Source: a virus. Taken from it: a stretch of 44,570 nt of DNA. Under the pieces are notes generated by a model. It ran no database searches. It had not been told where the DNA came from and worked only from the letters and a program-made list of their open reading frames with translations. Positions 2,611 through 28,604 of this stretch are shown one piece after another. Numbering within the stretch: the first letter of the stretch is position 1; each line of letters starts with the position of its first letter. The stretch spans positions 1 through 44,570 of IMG/VR virus record IMGVR_UViG_3300031654_000007; one strand, given 5' to 3'. A program made the position numbers and the translations under genes.

Positions 2611-3876
2611 ATGCCTGCAAAAAGATATGTAATTCCAAGTAGAAGTTACGATATTCAGATGACTATTAAAGATTTAGATTTTACAAATGATCTTCTTTCA
2701 GTTAGAATTCTTTCTTCATTAACTACTGCTTATCAAGTTGTTTTATTACGATTACTATCTGATCCCAGTGATTTTATTTTACAAGATATTTTTGGTTCTG
2801 ATCCGATAAAATTAAATGTTAAGTATATTGGTCAACTAGAAGTTCCACCAATGGAGGAAGTTGACCTTGAATTGATGTATCTTAAGTCAGAATCTAAACT
2901 TATTGAAAGAACAGAATCTTCAATCAATGTACAAAAAGAAAGAACTCCAGTTACTATAGTTACTGTTTGTAGAAAACCATTTAAAACTATGAATAGTATT
3001 GTTAATGAAGTTTATATTGGTGTTACTTTGAGACAAATTATAGAAGATTTGGCAAAGAAAATTGGAGTAAGTGTTGAATATGATTCTACAGGTGAAAATA
3101 AAGAAGTGATTGACCAAGTTTGTGTTCCACCAACCACTTTCTATAAAATTATAAAAGAAGGAACACCTACAAGTCGTGATGAGTTTGATGGATTTTTAGA
3201 TACAAATTTTGGTCTGTTTGATGGAGTTCCAGGAGTTTTTTGTCAACATGATAATAAAGTTTATATAAAGAATCTTTCTTCGAAATTTAATAAGAACCAG
3301 ACCTTTACAGTATATCAGCTTAGTTCTTCAGTAAATAACGAAAACATAATTAAAAAAAGTATTGATGGCAAGAATTTTTACACATATACAGAAATAAATA
3401 ATAACTTCTATGGAAATACTAAGTTTGCAACTGTTGCACCAACACTTAGATTTATTGCCAAACCCTCTGATAAGCTATTCTATGTAATTGAACGAGACTT
3501 ACAAAATGTTTGTGCTAATTATGGATTGATATATAAAAATAAAACTATTTCGATAGATCCATATATCTCTAAAGAAAAAAGAATTCGATATTACAATGAA
3601 GACACTGGTTATGAAACTTCGTCAATTCAGTTTAATTCAAGAATTTCAAGAATGATGGCAGATTTAGCAACTGTTAGTATCGATCTAGAAAGAAATTTAC
3701 CAATTCTAAATTTGATGAATGTTGGAGAGACAGTTAAATTTAATACTCAAATAACGGACTACATTGATTTGTCTGGTAAGTATATTTTATGGTCTAGTGA
3801 GTTAAGATTTAATAAGTCTGGAGAATGGCAAGCTACTGCTAGAATTAATTTAGTTAGAACAAACAAAAAAATATAA
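2611..3876 (+). CDS. Probable baseplate hub protein (gp27-like)
   Basis: 421 residues from ATG 2611, chosen because AAAAAGGAG precedes it; a TTG nine codons earlier lacks one. The layout resembles baseplate hub proteins of myophages: an N-terminal beta barrel, then a middle segment with QVCVPPTTFYKII followed by FLDTNFGLFDGVPGVF and the strand DNKVYIKNLS, and a C-terminal beta domain. The 'PP-x-t-x-y-x-i ... LD-x-x-f-G-l-f' pattern is typical of large-phage hubs placed at the centre of the baseplate under the tail tube. The assignment rests on pattern memory. It stands alone between two intergenic regions, just before the terminase. Confidence 0.5.
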   Translation: MPAKRYVIPSRSYDIQMTIKDLDFTNDLLSVRILSSLTTAYQVVLLRLLSDPSDFILQDIFGSDPIKLNVKYIGQLEVPPMEEVDLELMYLKSESKLIERTESSINVQKERTPVTIVTVCRKPFKTMNSIVNEVYIGVTLRQIIEDLAKKIGVSVEYDSTGENKEVIDQVCVPPTTFYKIIKEGTPTSRDEFDGFLDTNFGLFDGVPGVFCQHDNKVYIKNLSSKFNKNQTFTVYQLSSSVNNENIIKKSIDGKNFYTYTEINNNFYGNTKFATVAPTLRFIAKPSDKLFYVIERDLQNVCANYGLIYKNKTISIDPYISKEKRIRYYNEDTGYETSSIQFNSRISRMMADLATVSIDLERNLPILNLMNVGETVKFNTQITDYIDLSGKYILWSSELRFNKSGEWQATARINLVRTNKKI

Positions 3877-4140: not shown

Positions 4141-4167
4141 GGAAAGTCTTTTCGGTTGGAAAGAAAA

Positions 4168-5838
4168 ATGAATATAACAATAGAAAAATCTAAACAGGAC
4201 GCAGAAAGTAAAGTTTCTGAGTATATTAGATGTAAGAATGATTTCAAACATTTTTGTGAGAACTACATATATTTAGAACTCCCTGGTGGTGACGTTCTAA
4301 TGACACCTTACCAGAAACAATTAGAATTAGTCGATCTTATAACTACTAAAAAGTACGTTTTAGTTCTAAAAAGTAGACAAATAGGAATTTCTACTGTAAT
4401 TCAAGCTTATGCGGCTTGGTTAGCTTTGTTCTATGATAATGTAGTGGTTGGAATTATCTCAAAAGATGGAAAAGAGGCTACTGATTTTGCTAGAAACATA
4501 AGAGGGATGATTGAGAAAGTTCCAGATTGGATGAAACCACCAAAAGGGATTGTAGGAAGAGGATTCTCAAAAAGAACAGAACAATCGTTTATTTTGACGA
4601 ACGGAAGTAAAATATATGCTTCACCAGTAGCACCAACTGCACCAGAGAAAACTCTTAGAGGTAAGGCAATAACGCTTCTAGTTATCGATGAAGGGGCATT
4701 TATCAAGTTTATCGATACTGCTTGGACTGCTATAGTTCCAGCGCTTTCTACAAATCAGATGATGGCTAAGAAAAATAACATTCCATTTGGTACTGTAATA
4801 TTATCAACTCCTAATAAGACTCATGGAGTTGGAAGATGGTTTTTTGACAACTACTCAAAAGCAATAACTGGAGAAGAAATATTTTTTCCATTTAAGATAC
4901 ATTGGAAACAAATACCACAATTAGCAAGTGATCCAAATTGGTTTAAAGATCAATGTAGGTTATTTGGTAATGATTTAAGAAAGATCCAGCAAGAATTGGA
5001 ATTAAAGTTCTTATCTACTACTGGATCATTTTTTGATAGTGATACTGTGGAGAAACTTCAAGAAATAGATATAGATCCAATTGAAAAGATAAAAATGTAT
5101 AATGGTGAGATTTGGAAGTTTGTAGAGCCAGATCAAAAAAGATTTTACTTGATAGGAGTAGATACTGCTCCAGAACATGGTATTGATAAATCAGCGATAA
5201 CAGTTTGGGATTATGAAACTTTAGAGCAAGTTTGGGAGTATCAAGGAAAATGTAGGGTTCTAGACTTTGTAAAAATAGTTAAACTTGCTTGTGCTTTATA
5301 TCCTGGATGCTTAGTTATTGAGTCTAATTCTTATGGAAACCAAGTAGTAGAGGAACTAAATGCATCTGAATTTTCTTTGATGTTATATAAAGAAACAAGA
5401 GGTTTAGGAAAGTTAGTTCCAGGTTTATCTACTAATTCCAAAACAAGACCCTTAATGATTGATGCTTTATATTCATATGTTACAGAGTTTCCTAGATCTA
5501 TTAAATCAAAACGACTAGTTTTAGAGTTAATTAGTTTAGTTTCAAAAGCTAGTGGGAGAGTAGAAGCTGATACTGATAGTAATGACGACCTAGTACTCGC
5601 TACTTCTTCTGCTTTCTATGTTCGAAAGTGGGATCCTCCACTAATGATTCAAAGTACTACAAAAGTGCAATTAGGAGACTTAACTCAAGTATTAGACTTT
5701 AATATTAGTGAAACAGAAATTTCAAATCGATCAGTTTTAAGACATGTTAAAGATAATATTGATGAGATGGGAGGATTTGTTGACATTCTTTCTATGTATA
5801 ATCGAGGGAATCTAAATGATATACAACCAAAGAAATAA
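4168..5838 (+). CDS. terL: Terminase large subunit
   Basis: 556 residues from ATG 4168 (GGAAAG upstream; an in-frame TTG at 4156 is less likely). It is the ATP-driven motor and nuclease that packages DNA into the prohead. ATPase domain: Walker A-like KSRQIGIST at about residues 68-76, Walker B LLVIDEGAF with catalytic Glu at about 170-178, coupling motif ILSTPNK at about 211-217. Nuclease domain: acidic residues in IGVDTA (about 330-335), VIESNS (about 384-389) and SNDDLVLA (about 472-479), as in T4 gp17. Full length. The next gene overlaps its last 23 bases, so the two are coupled. No small subunit gene was recognised next to it. Confidence 0.95.
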   Translation: MNITIEKSKQDAESKVSEYIRCKNDFKHFCENYIYLELPGGDVLMTPYQKQLELVDLITTKKYVLVLKSRQIGISTVIQAYAAWLALFYDNVVVGIISKDGKEATDFARNIRGMIEKVPDWMKPPKGIVGRGFSKRTEQSFILTNGSKIYASPVAPTAPEKTLRGKAITLLVIDEGAFIKFIDTAWTAIVPALSTNQMMAKKNNIPFGTVILSTPNKTHGVGRWFFDNYSKAITGEEIFFPFKIHWKQIPQLASDPNWFKDQCRLFGNDLRKIQQELELKFLSTTGSFFDSDTVEKLQEIDIDPIEKIKMYNGEIWKFVEPDQKRFYLIGVDTAPEHGIDKSAITVWDYETLEQVWEYQGKCRVLDFVKIVKLACALYPGCLVIESNSYGNQVVEELNASEFSLMLYKETRGLGKLVPGLSTNSKTRPLMIDALYSYVTEFPRSIKSKRLVLELISLVSKASGRVEADTDSNDDLVLATSSAFYVRKWDPPLMIQSTTKVQLGDLTQVLDFNISETEISNRSVLRHVKDNIDEMGGFVDILSMYNRGNLNDIQPKK

Positions 5839-16295: not shown

Positions 16296-17087
16296 TTATG
16301 ATGTGTACACCATACGAAAAAAGTTTTCCACTAGATCAATATCTAAGGTTTCTTCTGCTCCACAAGATGGACAAAAACTTTTCATTTTTAACTCTATTCC
16401 GTACTTCCCAAAATTTTCCATATAATCTTCATGAATCTTTCTTTTGTCTTTCGCAGGAAGTGACCTATAAGCGTCAATTATATCTTGTCGATCTTTATAT
16501 ACTATTGGTTCTGTTTGGTCTTGAATATCTTGTTCGAAACTGTCGATGATTAGAGTTTCTGTAATTGTATCAATATTAGAACCGGGAGTATTTAATAACT
16601 CCTTCATAGCGAAGATTTCATCAAGAAGACTTGGTTGTTTTATAATAACACTAACTGTTTTAGAAACAGGTAAATTTGTTTTGAATTTTTTAGTAAGTAT
16701 ATCTTTTCCTGGATAAGACATAAAATTAAATGTACTTGAAGCTTTAACTGTTATTGGATATTCAATACGACATTTACCACATCTTACTTGATAATTTCTT
16801 ATTTCTTCATATGTTATATGATAAAGTCCGTACAACAAAGCATCTCTATCTTTTATTGTTATATTCCTTAAAAAGGCGTCGTAATCTTTAATTGTATCAG
16901 GTTTCTTCGCTATTGCGTCAAAAATACACTTATTGAGATGTTCAGTTATTTTGGTTGGTGTCATTAAACTTCCTTTCATTTGTTCTTCTTCCTGAACGTT
17001 TAATGACCGTACTGTAAATGATTGATGTGTTTGAGGTGTAATTACTTCATATTCTGGAAACTTCAAATTGAAACCTGTAAACGTCAT
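16296..17087 (-). CDS. gp26/gp51-like baseplate hub assembly protein with zinc ribbon
   Basis: 263 residues, AAGGAGATAATC before the ATG. The protein carries two Cys pairs, CGKC (about residues 122-125) and CPSC (about 242-245), and ends in LVENFFRMVYTS. A C-terminal Cys knuckle followed by '...NFF' recalls the T4 baseplate family of gp26 and gp51 in large myophages. T4 gp26 and gp51 act in building the central hub. The end of the gene contains a T6 run (TTTTTTC) where a shift to the +1 frame would join the ORF at 16115-16252. Assignment from pattern memory. Confidence 0.55.
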   Translation of the reverse strand: MTFTGFNLKFPEYEVITPQTHQSFTVRSLNVQEEEQMKGSLMTPTKITEHLNKCIFDAIAKKPDTIKDYDAFLRNITIKDRDALLYGLYHITYEEIRNYQVRCGKCRIEYPITVKASSTFNFMSYPGKDILTKKFKTNLPVSKTVSVIIKQPSLLDEIFAMKELLNTPGSNIDTITETLIIDSFEQDIQDQTEPIVYKDRQDIIDAYRSLPAKDKRKIHEDYMENFGKYGIELKMKSFCPSCGAEETLDIDLVENFFRMVYTS

Positions 17088-19335: not shown

Positions 19336-19427
19336 CTATCTAATAATCTAATTAGTTGGAGGTTGTTTATATAAAAAAAGATTCACTTGGGAAAAAAATT
19401 TATGCTATATAAAGTTTGGAGATAATA

Positions 19428-20765
19428 ATGAAATCACATCCAATAATTGAACGACTACATTCTTATAGTTATGAAGCCTATCTAGTTGGAGGAACAGTTA
19501 GAGATTATCTTTTAGGTGAAGAACCTCATGATATTGATATAGTAACTTCTGCTAAACCAAATGAAATTGAATATATATTCCAAGATAGAACTGTAAAAAC
19601 AGTTGGAAAAAATTTTGGAGTTATATTAGTAGATGGTGTAGAAGTAGCTACTTATAGAATTGATAAGTATGGGGGATTTAGTGATAAAAATGTAGAAATT
19701 GCTTATGCTGGAACTTTGGAAGAAGATTTATCTAGAAGAGACTTTACAATTAATGCAATGGCTTTCGATGTGAAAAATTACAAGTTAATCGATCCATTTG
19801 GTGGGTCAGAAGACCTTCAACATAAAGTAATAAAGTTTGTTGGAGAACCGCAAAAGAGAATTTTTGAAGATCCAAACCGGATAATAAGAGCTTGTAGGTT
19901 TGATGCAAAATTGGACGGTATAATTGAGAAGGATACATGGAATGCTCTCAGAAAATACGCTGACTATGTAGAAACTCTTATTTCTCCAGAAAGAATTCGT
20001 CTTGAAATTATTAAAGCTATGAAGATAAAAAAGGCTTCAAAGTTTTTTAGAACTCTTCATCAAATTGGCGCTTTAATATATATTTTTCCATCACTAGAAG
20101 ATTGTGTTGGACATCCACACGGACCACATCATTGTGAAGATGTTTTTGAACATAGTATGTTATGTGGTGACTGTATTTCAACAAGGTATCCTCTACTAAA
20201 GTTAGCAACTTATCTACATGATGTAGGAAAACCTGATGCGTGTAAGATAAATCCAAGAACAGATGACTTAACATTTGTTGGTCATGTTAATATTGGAGTT
20301 GATTTAATAAGAAATGAACTAACTACTTTGAAGTTCTCAAATAAAGAGATAGATTATATTTCAAAGTTAGTGTTCCTACATATGCGAAAAATAAGTCCTG
20401 GTTATCCAAAAGCGCTTCGACGAGTACTAAAGGAACTACATGAAGCTGGAATAGATTACAAAGATTTAGTAAGGTTGATAGTTGCTGACAAACATGGAAA
20501 TCTAAAACAGTCGCTATATAGCGTTAGTGAAGTTAAAACGTTACTAGAGTTTATACAAAAAATTATTAGTGAGAAATCACCAAATAGACTCAATGATTTA
20601 GCATTAAATGGAAGTGAAGTAATGGAAATAACTGGTTTCAACCCTGGTCCTATAATTGGAAAAATTCTTAATTTTCTCTTGGAGAAAGTTCTAGATAAAC
20701 CAGAGTTGAATACTAAAGAAGTTCTAACTAAATTAACGGAGGAGTATAGAAATGGACTTTTATGA
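19428..20765 (+). CDS. cca: CCA-adding enzyme / tRNA nucleotidyltransferase with HD domain
   Basis: 445 residues from ATG 19428 (TTGGAG upstream; an in-frame TTG at 19416 overlaps that site). Class II nucleotidyltransferase head: GGTVRD (21-26) and catalytic DID (35-37), then RRDFTINAMAFD and the DPNRIIRACRFD neck motif. A C-terminal HD domain is visible (HHCEDVFEHS and YLHDVGKP). The enzyme builds or repairs the CCA tail of tRNAs; the HD part gives phosphohydrolase activity in bacterial relatives. Full length. Overlaps the next gene by 14 bases. With the RlaP-like gene downstream it suggests defence against tRNA damage or care of phage tRNAs. Confidence 0.9.
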   Translation: MKSHPIIERLHSYSYEAYLVGGTVRDYLLGEEPHDIDIVTSAKPNEIEYIFQDRTVKTVGKNFGVILVDGVEVATYRIDKYGGFSDKNVEIAYAGTLEEDLSRRDFTINAMAFDVKNYKLIDPFGGSEDLQHKVIKFVGEPQKRIFEDPNRIIRACRFDAKLDGIIEKDTWNALRKYADYVETLISPERIRLEIIKAMKIKKASKFFRTLHQIGALIYIFPSLEDCVGHPHGPHHCEDVFEHSMLCGDCISTRYPLLKLATYLHDVGKPDACKINPRTDDLTFVGHVNIGVDLIRNELTTLKFSNKEIDYISKLVFLHMRKISPGYPKALRRVLKELHEAGIDYKDLVRLIVADKHGNLKQSLYSVSEVKTLLEFIQKIISEKSPNRLNDLALNGSEVMEITGFNPGPIIGKILNFLLEKVLDKPELNTKEVLTKLTEEYRNGLL

Positions 20766-21120
20766 TATTAAGAACCCGTTTGAAATTGATGATGAATTAC
20801 TTAACATACACATTAAAACTATGGTGTCAATTCTTTCAATCCCATCCGGATTTAGATTATGGGAAGGTGAAAAAGAAGATTCTCCAGTTTCTTTAGAAAT
20901 TCCTCAAGAAATAACTAGAAGAATTAAAGAAATTTGTACGGAAGAAAATTTAAGTCAGTGGGAATTTGAAAAGAAGTTCTTTAGTTCGTTAGTTTTAGAC
21001 GGTTTGATGTTTCGTTATATCCTGGCAACTTATCCGAAAGTTTCTATGAGTATAGCAACTGAAATGCTTATAGGAATGAGAGAGCGTTTTAAAGAAGAAG
21101 GAAAAAATGATACCATATAA
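20752..21120 (+). CDS. Hypothetical acidic protein between CCA enzyme and RlaP-like gene
   Basis: 122 residues; the ATG lies within the end of the cca gene, after GGAGG, and the stop overlaps the next start by 14 bases. Acidic N-terminus followed by helices (EITRRIKEICTEENLSQWEF). No family recognised. Because it is coupled on both sides to RNA nucleotidyltransferases, a partner role in the same pathway is plausible. Confidence 0.6.
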   Translation: MDFYDIKNPFEIDDELLNIHIKTMVSILSIPSGFRLWEGEKEDSPVSLEIPQEITRRIKEICTEENLSQWEFEKKFFSSLVLDGLMFRYILATYPKVSMSIATEMLIGMRERFKEEGKNDTI

Positions 21121-22168
21121 CTTTAAATTAATTTTCGAAGCCATAACAGGAAGTAATTTATATGGAACTAATACGGAAGAGTCAGACATTGATGTAAGAG
21201 GAGTTTTCATACCAAGTAAAGAATATTTTTATGGTTTTTTAAATGTTATTCATTTAAAAGACTATGAAGACAGGGAGAATGATAAAGTTTATTATGACAT
21301 TTGTAGTTTTATGAAAATGTTACTAGCTAATAATCCTATGATTCTTGAGTTTCTATTTATTCCAGAAAAACTATGGAAAGTACAGTCAAAAATGTGGATT
21401 GAAATAGTTTCTGCTAGAGACAGTATTGTTTCTAAACTATGTGTTAACACATTTATTGGTTATGCTAATGAACAACTAAAACGTATCAATCGTCACAGAG
21501 GTTGGCTTTTAAATCCACCAAAAGAATTTCCAACAAGAAAGAAGTATGGTCTCCCTAGTAATCATTCTTTAATTTCAAAAGACCAGATTGGAGCTTTTAA
21601 TAAGTTGTTATCTTTATACCTACAGCAGATCGGAAAGTTTCATGAGTTAAATGAACAATTGAAATTGATGGAAGAATATGTTTCTTTTATTAGTCTAACT
21701 CAAAACTTAATGGAACCTGATTACGAAGCTATAAAAAGTGTAATACCTGTGAGTGATAACTTTATTGAAGCTCTTGATAGAGAAAAATCATATATGAATG
21801 CAATGAGAGAATGGAAATCATATCAAAATTGGAAGAAAAATAGGAATCCTACTAGGGCGAAATTAGAAGAGAAATTTGGTTATGATTTAAAGCATGCTGT
21901 AAATTTATATCGTTTATTAACAGAGGGAGAAGAAATATTATTAAACAGATATATTACTTTTCCCAGACCAGATTTGGATATGTTAAAATGGATCTTGGCG
22001 GGAAATGTTTCTTATGACGAACTAGTAACATTAATGAATGATCGGACAAATCAACTAAAGGAACTTAAAGAATTTAGTCCTTTACCTGATAGACCAAATG
22101 AAAAGTTATTGGATGAGATGTGTATAATAATAGTAGAGAACTACTTAACTAAGGAGATAGATAAATGA
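21107..22168 (+). CDS. RlaP-like nucleotidyltransferase (RNA repair pathway, pol-beta superfamily)
   Basis: 353 residues. The N-terminus has the pol-beta nucleotidyltransferase signature GSNLYGTNTEESDIDVRGVF (Gly-Ser at about 15-16, DID at 27-29), followed by YYDICSFMKMLLANNPMILEFLF, which is characteristic of the YcgL/RlaP group. Proteins of this group occur in bacterial and phage RNA repair operons with RNA ligases. No ligase gene is visible in this window. The C-terminal half is helical with a repeated 'W...L.G..sY.El' type segment. GAAGGAA precedes the ATG. Third gene of a tightly overlapping operon starting with cca. Confidence 0.75.
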   Translation: MIPYNFKLIFEAITGSNLYGTNTEESDIDVRGVFIPSKEYFYGFLNVIHLKDYEDRENDKVYYDICSFMKMLLANNPMILEFLFIPEKLWKVQSKMWIEIVSARDSIVSKLCVNTFIGYANEQLKRINRHRGWLLNPPKEFPTRKKYGLPSNHSLISKDQIGAFNKLLSLYLQQIGKFHELNEQLKLMEEYVSFISLTQNLMEPDYEAIKSVIPVSDNFIEALDREKSYMNAMREWKSYQNWKKNRNPTRAKLEEKFGYDLKHAVNLYRLLTEGEEILLNRYITFPRPDLDMLKWILAGNVSYDELVTLMNDRTNQLKELKEFSPLPDRPNEKLLDEMCIIIVENYLTKEIDK

Positions 22169-23241: not shown

Positions 23242-23307
23242 ATGCTAGAACAATTTGACGGTGTAGTTTATACTAGGTTTGGTAAAAAAGATGGAAACCA
23301 ACAGTAA
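23242..23307 (+). CDS. 21-residue peptide ORF overlapping the radical SAM start
   Basis: ATG 23242 follows AAAAAGGA by about 9 bases. The peptide starts MLEQFDGVVYTRFGKK and ends DGNQQ; its last 17 bases lie over the start of the radical SAM gene in another frame. It could be a translational coupling leader or, since it sits directly before a radical SAM/SPASM enzyme, a short peptide substrate. It has no Cys and no obvious leader/core structure, so the second idea is weak. Confidence 0.4.
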   Translation: MLEQFDGVVYTRFGKKDGNQQ

Positions 23308-24349
23308 GTCCAATATGGAATTTAGAACATTAAGAGATGAAGATACTAAAATAGAGATACTTGGTTATTTCGATAAACATTTTAAAAATGACTATTATGA
23401 ATTGTTATTTAACACAAAAACAGGTTTTGAAATACTTCGTGGTATTAATGGTTATCCAGACCCATTTTCTCTTGTTATGCCATCGATGATCGATTGTGGG
23501 ATAATGGGGCATTGTAAGAACAGATGTGAATTCTGTTATCAGGGCGATGTTCAAGAACCCAATATGAAACTTGAAGATTTCAAACGAATTGTTGACGAGT
23601 GTAAACAATATACAAATCAAATAGCTCTTGGAGGACGGGGTGATCCAAACTTACATGAAAACTTTAAAGAGATAATTGAGTATGCAAGGGAAAACAATGT
23701 AGTTCCAAACTATACAACAAGTGGAATTGGGTTAACAGACTTTCAGGTAGAAGTTTCGAAACTATGTGGTGCTGTAGCAGTTTCTGATTATCAGAAAGAT
23801 TTCACGTATCAAGCATTAAATATGTTTATGGATGTTGGAATCAAAACTAATATACATCTTGTATTTACAAGAATATCTGCAGAAAGATCCATCAACATAT
23901 TACAAGGATTTGATGTGTGGGATAAAAAAGTAGATCTAGAAAGACTCAATGCAGTTATTTTTCTTTTATTTAAACCACAAGGTAGAGCTAAGAATCTTTT
24001 ACATTGGATTCCAAAAACGAGTCAGTTACTCCAATTTAGTAATTTACTTCGAAAACCGAAGTGTAAATTTAAAGTTGGGCTTGATAGTTGTATGGTAAAC
24101 AAAACAAAAAAGTTTGTTAAGTTTTCTCCTCTTCAAAAGATGTCAATTGATACTTGTGAATCTGGAAGAATGTCAGTTTATGTTACTCCAGACATGAAAT
24201 TAGTTCCATGTTCTTTCGCTGATCATGAGAAATATGGAACTTCTATAAGAGATAAGTCAATCGAAGAAGTATGGAATAACTCGTCTCCATTTATTATATG
24301 TAGACGACAATTAAGAAAATATTCGGATATATGTCCTTACGAATTTTAG
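23291..24349 (+). CDS. Radical SAM enzyme with SPASM-like C-terminal domain
   Basis: 352 residues from ATG 23291 (a TTG at 23279 would add 4). The CxxxCxxC [4Fe-4S] motif is CKNRCEFC (Cys75, Cys79, Cys82); GGRGDPNL (about 108-115) matches the 'GGEP' SAM-binding strand. The C-terminal part has several Cys (DTCESGR, LVPCSF, IICRRQ, ICPYEF) around SIRDKSIEEVWNNS, the usual SPASM pattern 'gni-xx-sl-xei-W-n-s' that holds auxiliary Fe-S clusters. SPASM enzymes commonly modify peptides or proteins. Four tagged proteins with an N-terminal TNSSS motif follow within 2 kb. Alternatives are tRNA, cofactor or sugar chemistry. Confidence 0.85.
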   Translation: METNSKSNMEFRTLRDEDTKIEILGYFDKHFKNDYYELLFNTKTGFEILRGINGYPDPFSLVMPSMIDCGIMGHCKNRCEFCYQGDVQEPNMKLEDFKRIVDECKQYTNQIALGGRGDPNLHENFKEIIEYARENNVVPNYTTSGIGLTDFQVEVSKLCGAVAVSDYQKDFTYQALNMFMDVGIKTNIHLVFTRISAERSINILQGFDVWDKKVDLERLNAVIFLLFKPQGRAKNLLHWIPKTSQLLQFSNLLRKPKCKFKVGLDSCMVNKTKKFVKFSPLQKMSIDTCESGRMSVYVTPDMKLVPCSFADHEKYGTSIRDKSIEEVWNNSSPFIICRRQLRKYSDICPYEF

Positions 24350-24366
24350 GATAGGAGATGGGAATT

Positions 24367-24540
24367 ATGAATGATAATGATTATATAAAACAAGCTGTTA
24401 GAAGATTCGTGTGGTTTTTGTTCTTCTTTAACTTTTGTATTGCAATATATTTTTCGTCAGCAACTAATTTGGCTGTAAGTATTTTTCTTCTTCTTTGTTT
24501 GATAATGAGCAGATCACAAATAACAGAAGGAGAAGAATGA
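24367..24540 (+). CDS. Small membrane protein
   Basis: 57 residues from ATG 24367 (AGGAG 13 bases upstream; ATG 24358 sits too close to that site). A hydrophobic region at about residues 15-48 (VWFLFFFNFCIAIYF, then LAVSIFLLLCLIM) forms one or two membrane helices; the N-terminus is acidic and the C-terminus ends EGEE. No family recognised. Its stop overlaps the next, broken ORF by 4 bases. Confidence 0.55.
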   Translation: MNDNDYIKQAVRRFVWFLFFFNFCIAIYFSSATNLAVSIFLLLCLIMSRSQITEGEE

Positions 24541-24723
24541 GTATCTATTGAGTAAAAGCAGTTTGCCCAAGTTGTGGAAAATACTATTTAGTTAGACTAC
24601 AATATAGGTGGAATTGGAAGAGGTCTTCTACGAAAGTTCTGTACTAGGTGTAGTGAGACAGAACGACGTAGAGATACTAAAATTAGATTGTGGCTAAAAG
24701 TTAGGTGGTTACTTAATGTTTAG
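24537..24723 (+). pseudogene. Broken zinc-ribbon gene
   Basis: ATG 24537 overlaps the previous stop (ATGA). After four codons there is an in-frame TGA, then VKAVCPSCGKYYLVRLQYR, and in the +1 frame KFCTRCSETERRRDTK up to TAG 24721. Joined, the pieces give a zinc ribbon with CxxC...CxxC. At least one frameshift and one UGA separate them, so the gene looks decayed unless recoding occurs. Confidence 0.55.
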
Positions 24724-24730
24724 TAACCAC
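24705..24730 (+). terminator. Terminator-like hairpin
   Basis: GTGGTTACT (24705-24713) pairs perfectly with AGTAACCAC (24722-24730) around an 8-base loop. Only a weak T-containing stretch follows (about 24745-24755). It separates the radical SAM part of the block from the tagged genes and could end or attenuate transcription. Confidence 0.5.
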
Positions 24731-24776
24731 TGTAAATAAATATCTATTTTAGTTTTTAGTGAGATTTAGGAGGATT

Positions 24777-25298
24777 ATGAAGGTTCGAACAGATTTTATA
24801 ACTAATAGTTCTAGTGCTGCTTATATTGTAAGATATAAAAACCCCATTAATACAGCTAAAAAGATGTTGGATATATTTTTTAAAAATTGGAAAGATTCTT
24901 CACAAGATGAATCACACCCCTGCGAAGAAGAAGTTCGAAAGTGGTTAAAAGATAATCCAAATTTTGATGGAAATATTATTATTCCATGGACTTGTAATTA
25001 TGAAACTTTTATTTATGGTGGAGATTGGATTGATGTTGCTAGAGGACGAAGAGTTCGAGTAGATACATGTAATAATGAGGACTGGATAAGTAATGGATTA
25101 GAGATAGAACGTTATGTCGGTGAAGAAGAATATTATGATTATATAGAGTATGATAAAGAAGAGTTGTTCTTAGACTTAACTGACTTTAAGATCAAGACAA
25201 GAGCAAAGTTTAATAAAGAAAGAGAGGAATTATTTGATATAGAAATAGAACAACTAGAGAAAGAAAGAGAAAAAGAGGAGAAAAGAAAGAAGGAATAA
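24777..25298 (+). CDS. Hypothetical protein with N-terminal DFITNSSS tag
   Basis: 173 residues from ATG 24777, with TAGGAGG upstream; a GTG at 24759 is in frame but would add residues before the tag. Begins MKVRTDFITNSSSAAYIV, matching the other tagged proteins at the same position. The body is acidic with many Trp and Asp/Glu (NEDWISNGLEIERYVGEEEYY) and ends in a long Glu/Lys/Arg helix (about residues 135-173). Next gene starts 2 bases later. Function unknown; likely same processing or targeting as its neighbours. Confidence 0.8.
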   Translation: MKVRTDFITNSSSAAYIVRYKNPINTAKKMLDIFFKNWKDSSQDESHPCEEEVRKWLKDNPNFDGNIIIPWTCNYETFIYGGDWIDVARGRRVRVDTCNNEDWISNGLEIERYVGEEEYYDYIEYDKEELFLDLTDFKIKTRAKFNKEREELFDIEIEQLEKEREKEEKRKKE

Positions 25299-25300
25299 AA

Positions 25301-25678
25301 ATGAAGATAAAAACAGACTTCGTAACAAATAGCTCAAGTTGTAATTTTGTAATGTTGGGTTTTAAAATTAAAACTAAAAAAGATGTATATAAAATACCAT
25401 TTAATAAAATACTGAGGTTAGTTTTCCAGGATAAAAATGATGAAGAAATAGATAAGTTACAAGAGAAATTTATCGAAAGATACTTTCTTATCGGAACCGA
25501 AGCAGGAGCACCAAATGATCATACTATTCTAGTGGGGGCTCCAATTTTTGTATATGATTGCGATGTTGAGGATTTTAGTGAAGAAAACATAGAAATAATT
25601 AATAACGTAAAACAAGATCTTGAAACTATTTTTGGATCTAGAAAATATAAGTTATATTTTGGAACTAGAACGTGTTAA
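25301..25678 (+). CDS. Hypothetical protein with N-terminal DFVTNSSS tag
   Basis: 125 residues beginning MKIKTDFVTNSSSCNFVM. The tag is followed by an unrelated domain with two acidic stretches and alternating strands (HTILVGAPIFVYDCDVED, KYKLYFGTRTC), ending in Cys. It starts 2 bases after its tagged neighbour, so both are co-translated. No known fold recognised. Ser-to-Cys change at the fourth Ser position of the tag shows that the first three Ser and the preceding Thr-Asn are the most constant part. Confidence 0.8.
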   Translation: MKIKTDFVTNSSSCNFVMLGFKIKTKKDVYKIPFNKILRLVFQDKNDEEIDKLQEKFIERYFLIGTEAGAPNDHTILVGAPIFVYDCDVEDFSEENIEIINNVKQDLETIFGSRKYKLYFGTRTC

Positions 25679-25689
25679 GGAGTAATACA

Positions 25690-26193
25690 TTGAAAACAAA
25701 GTCTGATTTCGTTACAAACTCGAGTTCTTCTAGCTTTATAGTAGCTTGGGATAAAATAGTAGAAACGTTTGATGACGTTAAGAAACATTTAACGTGTACC
25801 GACCATGCAAAAATAGTTCTAGGTGATATACTTAATCAAGAACCTTTAGTTCTAAAAGAAGGTAATTTTGACTTTGATTTAGATCCAGTGCTTAAAGGAA
25901 TAACTAATCGAATTGTTGTAGAACTAAAAACAGGAACTTTTCCAGAAGACATAAGTTGGAGGGAATATGACCATCTCGTTAAGAGTGGTTTGACTACACA
26001 ACAGGCTAGTAAGATAGTTAAGAAAGAACGTATGGAAAAAGCAGAACAAATCGCCATAAATTTTATAAAAAATAATATAGGTCGAGTAATCTACTTCTTT
26101 ACTTATGCTGATGAAGACGGAGAAATATCTTCTGATATGGAGCATGGTGATATATTTAGGAAACTTCCAAATATTTGTATAAATAAACATTAG
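25690..26193 (+). CDS. Hypothetical protein with N-terminal DFVTNSSSSSF tag (TTG start)
   Basis: 167 residues if started at TTG 25690, which has AAGGAGT 6 bases upstream and puts the tag (KTKSDFVTNSSSSSFIV) at exactly the distance from the start seen in its neighbours; a GTG at 25672 would overlap that ribosome binding site. The body is acidic and helical (DHLVKSGLTTQQASKIVKKE) with a Phe/Tyr-rich strand (GRVIYFFTYADEDGE). No known family. Third consecutive tagged gene. Confidence 0.8.
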   Translation: MKTKSDFVTNSSSSSFIVAWDKIVETFDDVKKHLTCTDHAKIVLGDILNQEPLVLKEGNFDFDLDPVLKGITNRIVVELKTGTFPEDISWREYDHLVKSGLTTQQASKIVKKERMEKAEQIAINFIKNNIGRVIYFFTYADEDGEISSDMEHGDIFRKLPNICINKH

Positions 26194-26201
26194 ATACTAA
26201 T

Positions 26202-26569
26202 ATGAAGATAAAAAGTGACTTTGATACTAACAGTTCGTCAACTAATTATCTAGTGACGATACCACTTTCTTTAGAATTTGAAACACTATTTTTCAATAAG
26301 GGAATAAGTTGGAATAATAACGAATATGTACGATTGTGAAGTTAACATTGAAAAGTTATCTGAAATTTTTTTCATAAACTAATGGCACAGTTTACGAACA
26401 TCTAGATGAAGATGGCGAATTTTACGCACTTCACTAATTGTTAAAAGAAATGGGATTAGTCATTGTTAAAATCGAGGGTAGTCCAAGTACATGTTGTATC
26501 ATAAATGTTTTATACGAAAAATTTCAGGAAAAAATTAGTGATATAAAGAAGGAGTATGAGAGCAAATAA
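26202..26569 (+). pseudogene. Broken fifth copy of the tagged gene type
   Basis: ATG 26202 opens MKIKSDFDTNSSSTNYLV, the family tag with Val to Asp at one position, but the frame stops at 26337. Coding-looking sequence continues in other frames: YDCEVNIEKLSEIFF, then NGTVYEHLDEDGEFYALH and finally LLKEMGLVIVKIEGS up to TAA 26567. At least three disruptions are needed, so this is a decayed gene rather than programmed recoding. It shows the tag is ancient in this block. Confidence 0.65.
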
Positions 26570-26615: not shown

Positions 26616-28604
26616 TTACTTAATAAAGAAGTTAAGTTCGATCTTCTCAACAACTCTAGTTGGATTCAAAATTACGTTAACATGGAACGTTTTCCGTTTC
26701 TTCTCATAATCTGTAGCGCCAACTTCAACACTATAATCATATAGACCTCTTTTTTTCTTGATTGCTTCTAAGAACTCAACTATATCACCAGATACTAGAT
26801 TCCATGTTATGGCGTCATTTTGTTGGAAAATAAAGTATCTACAATATTCTGATAGTGCTCGTTTACAATACAGTACTAGTCTTACAATATTTAGATCTTG
26901 TAATGCACTAGTTTTCGCTTGTGTGGTTAGTTGCCCCCAAACTACATATCCAGGATTGAACTTAACGATTGGATTCAACTGTTTTAGATACATCGTATCT
27001 CTTTGATCAAGATTTGGATTAAACCTAAGTTCTTTAATTGAGTCAATAGAAGCTCTGTTGAATCCTGCAGCGGCATACCAAAGTTCAGATACAGTATCGC
27101 TTCTTGGAAGTATATAGGACATATGATAAACTGGTGAAAACCATACATCTTTTCCAGTAAATATATCATTAACTTTATTGTACTCTTCATAAAGAGCTAG
27201 TAAGAAAGTATTATATGTGTGGTTATGTAAACGTTCATAAATAGCACCACTAGGACTACTTGGTCCACCAACAACTGAGTTATCACCGTTATCCAAAATA
27301 CCAACACAATCTCTCCTTGTTTGAACTAATGAACTAATGCTATTTTTAACTTCATCTGGATAACCACAATCGAAAACTAAAGTAAAGTAGATATTTTCAT
27401 CATCAAGAACTTGATCATCGATTGCTCCAGCATAACCTTGCGCTAGAATATTTTCCGCTTCGTCAGTATCAAGATCACCAGCACTATCAATAAGGGAACC
27501 ATCAGAACCACGTTTTAGTGGAACTGGTTCGCTAGAAGTAAAAGCAGTTGCTATATTTGTGTTAGCTTTTTTGATTATATAACTGATTTCGTTTCCTGTT
27601 CCAGCGACAGTATCAAATAACGTGATATCTCCCTTCCAAGATTGTGTTGCTGAAGCAGAATGTCGTTCGTCAAAAACATTAATTGTTTCATTATCTCCAC
27701 CACTATAATCTCCTAACCAACCCCAAACTTTATTTCCTTTTCCATCAGTTGCTATTACTACATATTCAAATGTAGCACCAGGAGCTTCAGTAGTTGCCCA
27801 ATCAGAAAAGTTTTGTTTATTATCGGTAATAGTCGCAGACCCAATAGTTTCCACTATTGATACAGTTCCAATATCTTTGTCATAAACTTTAGACACTAAT
27901 TCATAACCGCCAGTATAAGATCCAGAAGTCAAAGTCATATCAGCTCTTAGTACTGAAGAATATGTATTTAGAATATCCACGATAAAGATAGACTCACCAG
28001 CGTCATCAACTGCTTTAGGATTAAATGAAACTTCGAATGATTCGATAATTACGTCATCACCATCTGATTGTCTCTCATATATGTCCATAACATAAACATC
28101 ATTAAGTAGTGGATTAGAATGTTCTGTAAATCTAACTCCAATTCCATTGTAATATTCTCCTCGTCCAATTGGATATAAGAAAGCGATAGGATAGTTTGGA
28201 GTAGCGTTGGCAAGATTTGTATTTAACTCAGCCAATGTGTTTATTGAATCAACATAAGTAATAACTATTGACGCAGTTGCGTCAGCAGCGGCTATCTTAG
28301 CATCAATTCTCATATTTGCAAAGGAAGCGTCATCTGAAAGACATCTCATAAAATATAAACTTCCAGACTCTCCTAGAAAATTATATGAACAATAAAGACC
28401 TTGTCCATAATTTTTTCCATAATCTTGAATATTTGGTTCACCAAATTCGTTAACCAGATCAGCTCTAGATCCAACAAGAAGTAGTTCATTGTCTCTACCT
28501 TTTTTAGCAAGAGAACATATGAACCCAATAGTACTTGGAACTACTTGGACATATGTTGAGAGGTCAATTATTTTAGTATAGACTCCAGGCGAAATATTTG
28601 CCAT
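26616..28604 (-). CDS. Tail sheath protein
   Basis: 662 residues, GGGAGG before the ATG. N-terminus ISPGVYTKIIDLSTYVQVV is the typical sheath start, followed by GFICSLAKKGRDNELLLVGS and FGEPN. The C-terminal part (about residues 470-660) has the conserved sheath core: SPVYHMSYILPRSD, YAAAGFNRASI, LNPIVKFNPGYVVWGQLT, LNIVRLVLYCKRALSEYCR and the final strand. The middle carries an inserted beta-rich domain exposed on the tail surface. Sheath rings contract to drive the tube through the envelope. Start upstream shows two tandem AGAxAAACTAATAA sequences, related to the promoter element. Confidence 0.92.
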   Translation of the reverse strand: MANISPGVYTKIIDLSTYVQVVPSTIGFICSLAKKGRDNELLLVGSRADLVNEFGEPNIQDYGKNYGQGLYCSYNFLGESGSLYFMRCLSDDASFANMRIDAKIAAADATASIVITYVDSINTLAELNTNLANATPNYPIAFLYPIGRGEYYNGIGVRFTEHSNPLLNDVYVMDIYERQSDGDDVIIESFEVSFNPKAVDDAGESIFIVDILNTYSSVLRADMTLTSGSYTGGYELVSKVYDKDIGTVSIVETIGSATITDNKQNFSDWATTEAPGATFEYVVIATDGKGNKVWGWLGDYSGGDNETINVFDERHSASATQSWKGDITLFDTVAGTGNEISYIIKKANTNIATAFTSSEPVPLKRGSDGSLIDSAGDLDTDEAENILAQGYAGAIDDQVLDDENIYFTLVFDCGYPDEVKNSISSLVQTRRDCVGILDNGDNSVVGGPSSPSGAIYERLHNHTYNTFLLALYEEYNKVNDIFTGKDVWFSPVYHMSYILPRSDTVSELWYAAAGFNRASIDSIKELRFNPNLDQRDTMYLKQLNPIVKFNPGYVVWGQLTTQAKTSALQDLNIVRLVLYCKRALSEYCRYFIFQQNDAITWNLVSGDIVEFLEAIKKKRGLYDYSVEVGATDYEKKRKTFHVNVILNPTRVVEKIELNFFIK

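Follow-up and report, generated by a model that had tools for sequence, protein, structure and literature searches.

A shared N-terminal tag on diverse proteins of phages, bacteria, and archaea is linked to one family of radical SAM/SPASM enzymes

Several radical S-adenosylmethionine (rSAM) enzymes, such as SuiB, SkfB, and PqqE of the streptide, sporulation killing factor (SKF), and pyrroloquinoline quinone (PQQ) pathways, are known to modify peptides. The anaerobic sulfatase-maturating enzyme (anSME), which is likewise of the rSAM/SPASM type, alters a serine or cysteine of a folded protein in trans (PMC8326336), and the FxSxx peptides that accompany rSAM/SPASM enzymes in VMAP ternary conflict systems (Kaur et al. 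2020, PMC7159879) are the closest published idea that we found to the system described here. We analyzed the whole IMG/VR record IMGVR_UViG_3300031654_000007 of 44,570 bases (hereafter the window), in which an rSAM/SPASM gene is followed by genes for otherwise dissimilar proteins that share a tag of about 17 residues at their N-terminus. Across phages, bacteria, and archaea, this tag keeps a fixed register on diverse protein bodies and shows co-occurrence and adjacency with one rSAM family. The enzyme probably recognizes the tag in trans on diverse folded proteins and modifies it; the physical recognition, the modification, its site, and its chemistry are what we infer from these sequences.

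Five genes of the window have the common start M-[KR]-x-[KR]-x-D-F-[VID]-T-N-S-S-S with the asparagine as residue 10, which bears out the near-identical protein starts that a first-pass annotation of this DNA had pointed out. Read from the sequence, the tags are MRVKCDFVTNSSSSSFI (gene at 245), MKVRTDFITNSSSAAYI (24777), MKIKTDFVTNSSSCNFV (25301), MKTKSDFVTNSSSSSFI (25690, with a TTG start), and MKIKSDFDTNSSSTNYL (26202), and the genes of the system are arranged as follows:

23279 to 24349, + strand: radical SAM/SPASM enzyme, 356 amino acids (aa) from TTG 23279 (ATG at 23291), based on Pfam, phrog_7293, and an alignment of 47 relatives
24777 to 25298, + strand: tagged protein 1, start MKVRTDFITNSSSAAYIV, mechanical open reading frame (ORF) from GTG 24759, relatives in loci L005 and L124
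25301 to 25678, + strand: tagged protein 2, start MKIKTDFVTNSSSCNFVM
25690 to 26193, + strand: tagged protein 3, start MKTKSDFVTNSSSSSFIV, phrog_7397-like, mechanical ORF from 25672
26202 to 26569, + strand: broken tagged gene, start MKIKSDFDTNSSSTNYLV, stop at 26339, remnant to about 26569
245 to 631, + strand: distal tagged protein, start MRVKCDFVTNSSSSSFIA, about 23 kb from the enzyme gene

The broken gene encodes 45 aa before its stop and has an intact relative in L005 (10893-11267); a distal tag is likewise found in the related record that holds L005. A degenerate DNA pattern of the tag motif occurs four times in the window against 0.01 expected from dinucleotide shuffles, which rules out a chance origin. 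The choice between TCN and AGY codons for the tag serines varies among the genes, which rules out a DNA- or RNA-level repeat as its source; the tag is therefore conserved at the level of the protein. Its consensus reads M-K-[IV]-[KR]-x-[DG]-[FY]-[VI]-[TS]-N-S-S-S-x-x-[FY]-[IVL]. Among ORFs of rSAM-bearing loci with an N-[STC]-[ST]-[ST] motif near their start, the asparagine stands exactly nine residues after the methionine in 298 of 355 cases, and about 31 of the 34 motif starts that lie outside the scan pattern are clear tags with register and consensus kept. When 100 representatives of the body clusters were aligned, N10, S11, S12, and S13 were the only invariant columns, all of them within the tag, and the mean pairwise identity in two body families was 0.88 for the tag versus 0.31 for the body and 0.79 versus 0.27, respectively.

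The bodies behind this constant start are highly diverse. By BLAST, 445 tagged proteins fall into 94 body clusters, and searches for a known identity in Pfam, NCBIfam, annotated PHROGs, or PADLOC mostly gave no match for the 100 representatives, among which LRR_5 (in five) and BRCT (in four) are the only known domains that recur and none matches a sulfatase family. The unnamed phrog_7397 is matched by the 25690 protein of the window and 13 of the 100 representatives. AlphaFold models of two tagged families, with a predicted local distance difference test (pLDDT) score of 88.8 for 167 aa and 86.8 for 138 aa, have compact soluble folds that found no PDB or viral-model match below E 0.001 in structure comparison. 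Residues 1-10 of both models form a disordered arm of low confidence and a strand begins at residue 13; the tag is thus predicted to be an exposed arm with its NSSS where this arm meets the first beta-strand. Profile-profile comparison of the two families aligns only residues 1-33. The order of secondary-structure elements is alike in the two models, suggesting that an ancient common fold or very remote common ancestry is possible for part of the tagged bodies. The earlier description of these bodies as unrelated thus holds at the level of BLAST clusters and may be too strict for some of them.

A tag-only DNA pattern was scanned over IMG/VR (at least 119 stretches) and the GTDB species genomes (at least 117 stretches); all counts from these scans refer to the matches listed, the loci are partly redundant, and many of the genomes are bins. 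Of the 117 listed tag loci from bacteria and archaea, each no longer than 8 kb, 98 include the rSAM family; 14 of the remaining 19 genomes carry it elsewhere or outside these 8 kb, which gives 112 of the 117 tag genomes. Background occurrence of the family (E below 1e-100) is 4 of 242 unselected Clostridia genomes and 0 of 246 unselected Bacteroidia genomes, i.e., 4 of 488 when pooled. Fisher's test of this enrichment yielded p about 1e-80. The strict tag is found in two of these 242 Clostridia genomes, both of which also have the rSAM, and the reverse test showed that the remaining two Clostridia rSAM loci adjoin tagged genes as well (MKYRTGFVTNSSSSSN and MKIRKGFVTNSSSTNF), making four of four; two distant rSAMs (E about 1e-32) that served as negative control have no tagged neighbor. 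On the viral side, 64 of the 119 listed stretches, which are often short, contain an rSAM related to that of the window. Tag and rSAM genes share the same strand in 148 of 148 viral pairs, with the tag downstream in 142 and nearly all pairs separated by 3.7 kb or less, and an rSAM gene lies within the 3 kb upstream of 97 of the 136 viral tagged genes for which at least that much sequence is available. Among 39 viral records without rSAM at the tag locus, 22 carry one elsewhere, and for those of 100 kb or more it is present on the record in 11 of 12. A single rSAM is often accompanied by three to seven different tagged proteins in one genome, and the pair is found in phages, Bacillota, Bacteroidota, Pseudomonadota, Myxococcota, Cyanobacteria, and archaeal bins. 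The first-pass annotation had seen the tag as a mark for substrates of a shared machinery, to be doubted if no rSAM enrichment appeared near tagged genes; the enrichment is strong (98 of 117 loci and 112 of 117 genomes among the matches listed against 4 of 488), and this view is well supported by the linkage.

The window enzyme matches Pfam Radical_SAM (PF04055; 1.6e-7, 32 bits, cut-off 29.5), Pfam SPASM (PF13186; 5.6e-5, 23.8 bits, cut-off 21.5), and phrog_7293 (1.3e-22), in agreement with the SPASM-like cysteine motifs noted in the first-pass annotation; an NCBIfam search gave only sub-threshold matches. Its CX3CX2C motif comprises C79, C83, and C86, and the cluster cysteines 79 and 86 are invariant in 47 relatives together with the auxiliary cysteines 271, 293, 311, and 352; a Firmicutes-type clade has C-x7-C-x6-C instead of CX3CX2C. 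Bacterial clades carry the full SPASM stretch CX2CX5CX3C. Phage-clade enzymes in the same alignment end after ...CP-E/G-L without this second auxiliary-cluster stretch and keep only C271, C293, C311, and C352, i.e., less than the full two-cluster cysteine set of SPASM proteins. Among solved structures, the enzyme profile matches only 5v1q (whose PDB name is Radical SAM and which we take to be SuiB), SkfB, and PqqE, so that the nearest solved relatives of this family are peptide-modifying rSAMs. Tagged loci are spread over all main clades in a tree of 87 enzymes, and tag status clusters no more than expected by chance. We further observed a viral contig in which the rSAM gene is apparently split by an in-frame intein-like insert (L116:3795-6131), a distant rSAM on megaplasmid pDF308 of Deferribacter desulfuricans that itself starts with a tag-like MKLINYQIGNNTNSSSSHC as a fusion in cis (L284:5377-6924), and, directly 3' of the rSAM gene in L008 (about 3200-3260), a lone tag-like start (..KTDFVTNSSSTL, then stop) that is probably a decayed tagged gene.

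Distant relatives of the enzyme (about 25% identity by tblastn) are encoded by cultured RB43-, KP15-, and Miller-type phages and by Vibrio phage D479. The enzyme gene of RB43, Matisse, and Miller has no adjoining tag; a pattern search of the whole records found two tagged genes in each of these phages and five in D479, with zero matches for the reversed pattern. A tblastn search against phages with a 45-residue tagged start gave no match, the tag alone being too short. RB43 protein CCK73969 starts with MKIRSGFVSNSSSSSFIVRF and has a C-terminal ...EHGxxFRxL...H motif in common with the 25690 protein of the window. Of 50,697 phage records, 174 contain the RB43 enzyme, 175 one of its two tagged proteins, and 174 the other; the host genera are the same, and the genes lie about 20 kb apart. 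This co-occurrence reflects one lineage and is not independent evidence, yet it shows that the genes stay together despite their distance. Both RB43 tags fall in convenient tryptic peptides (SGFVSNSSSSSFIVR of CCK73969 and SGFVSNSSSSSFIIGIGLVRPGK of CCK73964). Between the two tagged genes lies one for a large von Willebrand factor A domain protein (L299:2360-4579; RB43 69359-71578).

We consider the relationship of an enzyme with a substrate tag to be the best reading of these observations because a constant segment on diverse proteins, a peptide-modifying enzyme class, the fixed register, and the very strong linkage come together. A dedicated rSAM/SPASM enzyme would bind the N-terminal tag in trans on several different folded proteins and install a post-translational change, whose most likely site is the Asn-Ser-Ser-Ser at the junction of the flexible arm with the first beta-strand. 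Its action would resemble that of a maturase of ribosomally synthesized and post-translationally modified peptides (RiPPs) on a leader/core segment, except that the segment would be retained at the front of a protein of 100-700 aa. The chemistry might be an oxidation of serine, as anSME performs, the formation of a backbone or side-chain crosslink, or epimerization. That the enzyme recognizes the tag is likely, and that the modification lies within the tag is favored with somewhat less confidence. Several points speak against this interpretation: operon linkage is no proof of enzyme-substrate contact, the Pfam profile search found no recognized leader-binding domain (RiPP recognition element, RRE) in the enzyme, 17 of the 39 viral tag records mentioned above (among the matches listed; most are short fragments) have no rSAM, a number of phage rSAM contigs have no tagged gene on the available fragment, and the tags were gathered by pattern, which means that their measured conservation is partly ascertained.

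Alternatively, the tag could be a recognition leader only, bound by an rSAM that modifies residues of the body, as leader binding with modification elsewhere is the usual RiPP logic (PMC8326336) and conservation is much stronger in the tag than in the bodies. We regard this as unlikely, given that the 94 unrelated body clusters, including those with LRR and BRCT domains, have no common acceptor residue or motif and that the tag contains all four positions that are invariant among the 100 aligned proteins. It is also rather improbable that the tagged proteins serve the rSAM as partners or regulators, e.g., adaptors or substrate carriers that dock by their tag while the true substrate is another protein or a small molecule. 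Docking alone would equally hold the pair together, and contexts from FecCD transporters to STAND NTPases leave room for another, common substrate, but three to seven different tagged proteins per rSAM would be odd for a subunit, the nearest solved relatives act on peptides, and our survey of neighbors revealed no further gene family that is shared by the phage, Firmicutes, and immune-like settings. Much less probable still is an independent signal for localization, packaging, or partner binding with the rSAM as a fellow traveler in accessory cassettes: some phage rSAM fragments without tagged gene and viral tag records without rSAM would fit, but not an rSAM in 112 of 117 tag genomes (among the matches listed) against 4 of 488 in the background, nor a co-occurrence that spans clades with differing enzyme subtypes and gene orders and holds even at 20 kb distance. 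Finally, it is very unlikely that the tag is an N-glycosylation sequon, a reading that the first-pass annotation mentioned as N-S-S fits N-x-S, or else a secretion signal, since invariance is not confined to S12 but includes S11 and S13 and the spacing from the methionine is fixed, neither of which a sequon requires, since the predicted bodies are ordinary compact, soluble folds that begin at residue 13 behind a disordered arm, and since no glycosyltransferase family recurs near the pair.

Bacterial tag-rSAM pairs occur in varied settings, and the pair is therefore a portable module. About 21 loci, including some on Rhizobium and Rhodobacter plasmids, have the order NTPase, small protein, tagged protein, rSAM; for the Rhodobacter NTPase, searches gave SMEK_N and Avs2-like matches. 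PADLOC gave cross-matches only, with viperin pVip for the rSAM domain and with Avs2 and pAgo-associated REase for the SMEK-NTPase, and none for the tagged or small proteins; rSAM and tag fit no named system, and the SMEK-NTPase cassette is a candidate defense system without a PADLOC model. Loci of Bacteroidota carry one or two tagged genes, the rSAM, and then a NACHT protein of about 1350 aa. In Firmicutes, the rSAM adjoins one or more tagged proteins, some of them long, and some bacterial tagged proteins near an rSAM bear LRR or BRCT domains. At a few loci, genes of FecCD-type metal-chelate transporters adjoin the pair (in a subgroup only) or NifH-/nitrogenase-like genes are nearby. Representative loci are:

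L282:2566-7017 and L283:2562-7017: conserved cassette of a STAND NTPase with a SMEK domain, a small protein, a tagged protein, and the rSAM, carried by rhizobial and Rhodobacter plasmids
L298:7119-13061, also L211, L237, L250, and L200: tagged protein, rSAM, and NACHT protein of Bacteroidota
L229, L251, L257, and L258; L166 and L232: loci associated with FecCD or NifH/nitrogenase-like genes

The tagged proteins encoded by this phage would be small accessory proteins. Because the same pair is found at immune-like STAND-NTPase loci and at metal-uptake-like loci of bacteria, the modified tag would probably, if speculatively, act as a switch or docking element of general use, not as the cofactor of a single pathway, and the immune-like settings make such a role plausible. 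More tentatively, we envisage a general prokaryotic and viral tagging system in which one rSAM might place the same unusual modification on a universal N-terminal NSSS tag of dozens of unrelated proteins, from the accessory toolkit of phages to cellular STAND-NTPase immune-like, metal-uptake, and other loci.

The window otherwise contains tailed-phage genes for a terminase-like protein (4156-5838), a T4-type baseplate protein (16296-17087), and a tail sheath (26616-28604). Upstream of its rSAM gene lie a CCA-adding/poly(A) polymerase-type and an RlaP-type nucleotidyltransferase (19416-20765 and 21107-22168), and the order of nucleotidyltransferases, rSAM, and tail sheath is repeated on a contig binned as Thermoplasmatales (L297). 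A 60-aa hydrophobic, probably membrane, protein is encoded between the rSAM gene and the tagged genes (24358-24540).

There is a substantial chance that the pair constitutes a distinct tagging system. If true, this would be a post-translational modification system of new layout, with a constant N-terminal tag on many folded proteins and one rSAM enzyme in trans. It would assign a function to many hypothetical proteins as well as to two unnamed phage families and connect the accessory proteins of phages with immune-like NTPase loci of bacteria, and it may bring new radical chemistry and a portable N-terminal protein modification. The model is directly testable in coliphage RB43, which carries the enzyme and two tagged proteins.

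We found no curated family and no open-access paper that describes the tag-rSAM pair, with subscription papers and preprints outside our search. The open-access literature likewise held no relevant paper on the tag motif, on SMEK together with radical SAM or ABC-3C, on substrates of phage SPASM proteins, or on RB43 with radical SAM, for which the sole match concerns QueE of another phage. The unnamed PHROGs clusters phrog_7293 and phrog_7397, matched by the window rSAM and the 25690 protein, do not record a link between tag and enzyme either. With the RiPP maturases SuiB, SkfB, and PqqE, the window enzyme has in common the radical SAM domain with a SPASM-type C-terminus and a conserved peptide segment encoded beside the enzyme gene. 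Unlike the short precursors with a released core of RiPP pathways, however, the partners here are predicted to be folded proteins of 100-700 aa (see the pLDDT scores above) with an N-terminal segment and diverse bodies, of which several go with one enzyme, and no protease or exporter family recurs among the neighbors, FecCD importers being present in one subgroup only. The FxSxx/rSAM conflict systems resemble our loci in joining a radical SAM/SPASM enzyme with a short conserved motif and in their tie to NTP-dependent systems (here SMEK- and NACHT-type NTPases). They differ in the motif itself, which in our case is an NSSS segment at the N-terminus of folded proteins in fixed register, and our loci extend to phages and NTPase-free settings and have no vWA-MoxR genes as recurrent neighbors. 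Finally, anSME shares the rSAM/SPASM type and the action in trans on a folded protein that we propose here, but its target is an internal active-site motif (of C/S-x-P/A-x-R type) of a single enzyme family, the sulfatases, whereas many protein families bear an N-terminal tag with invariant N-S-S-S at positions 10-13 in our case. Taken together, the tag-rSAM pairing is, as far as curated families and open-access papers show, previously undescribed and akin to rSAM/SPASM enzymes that act on an encoded partner.

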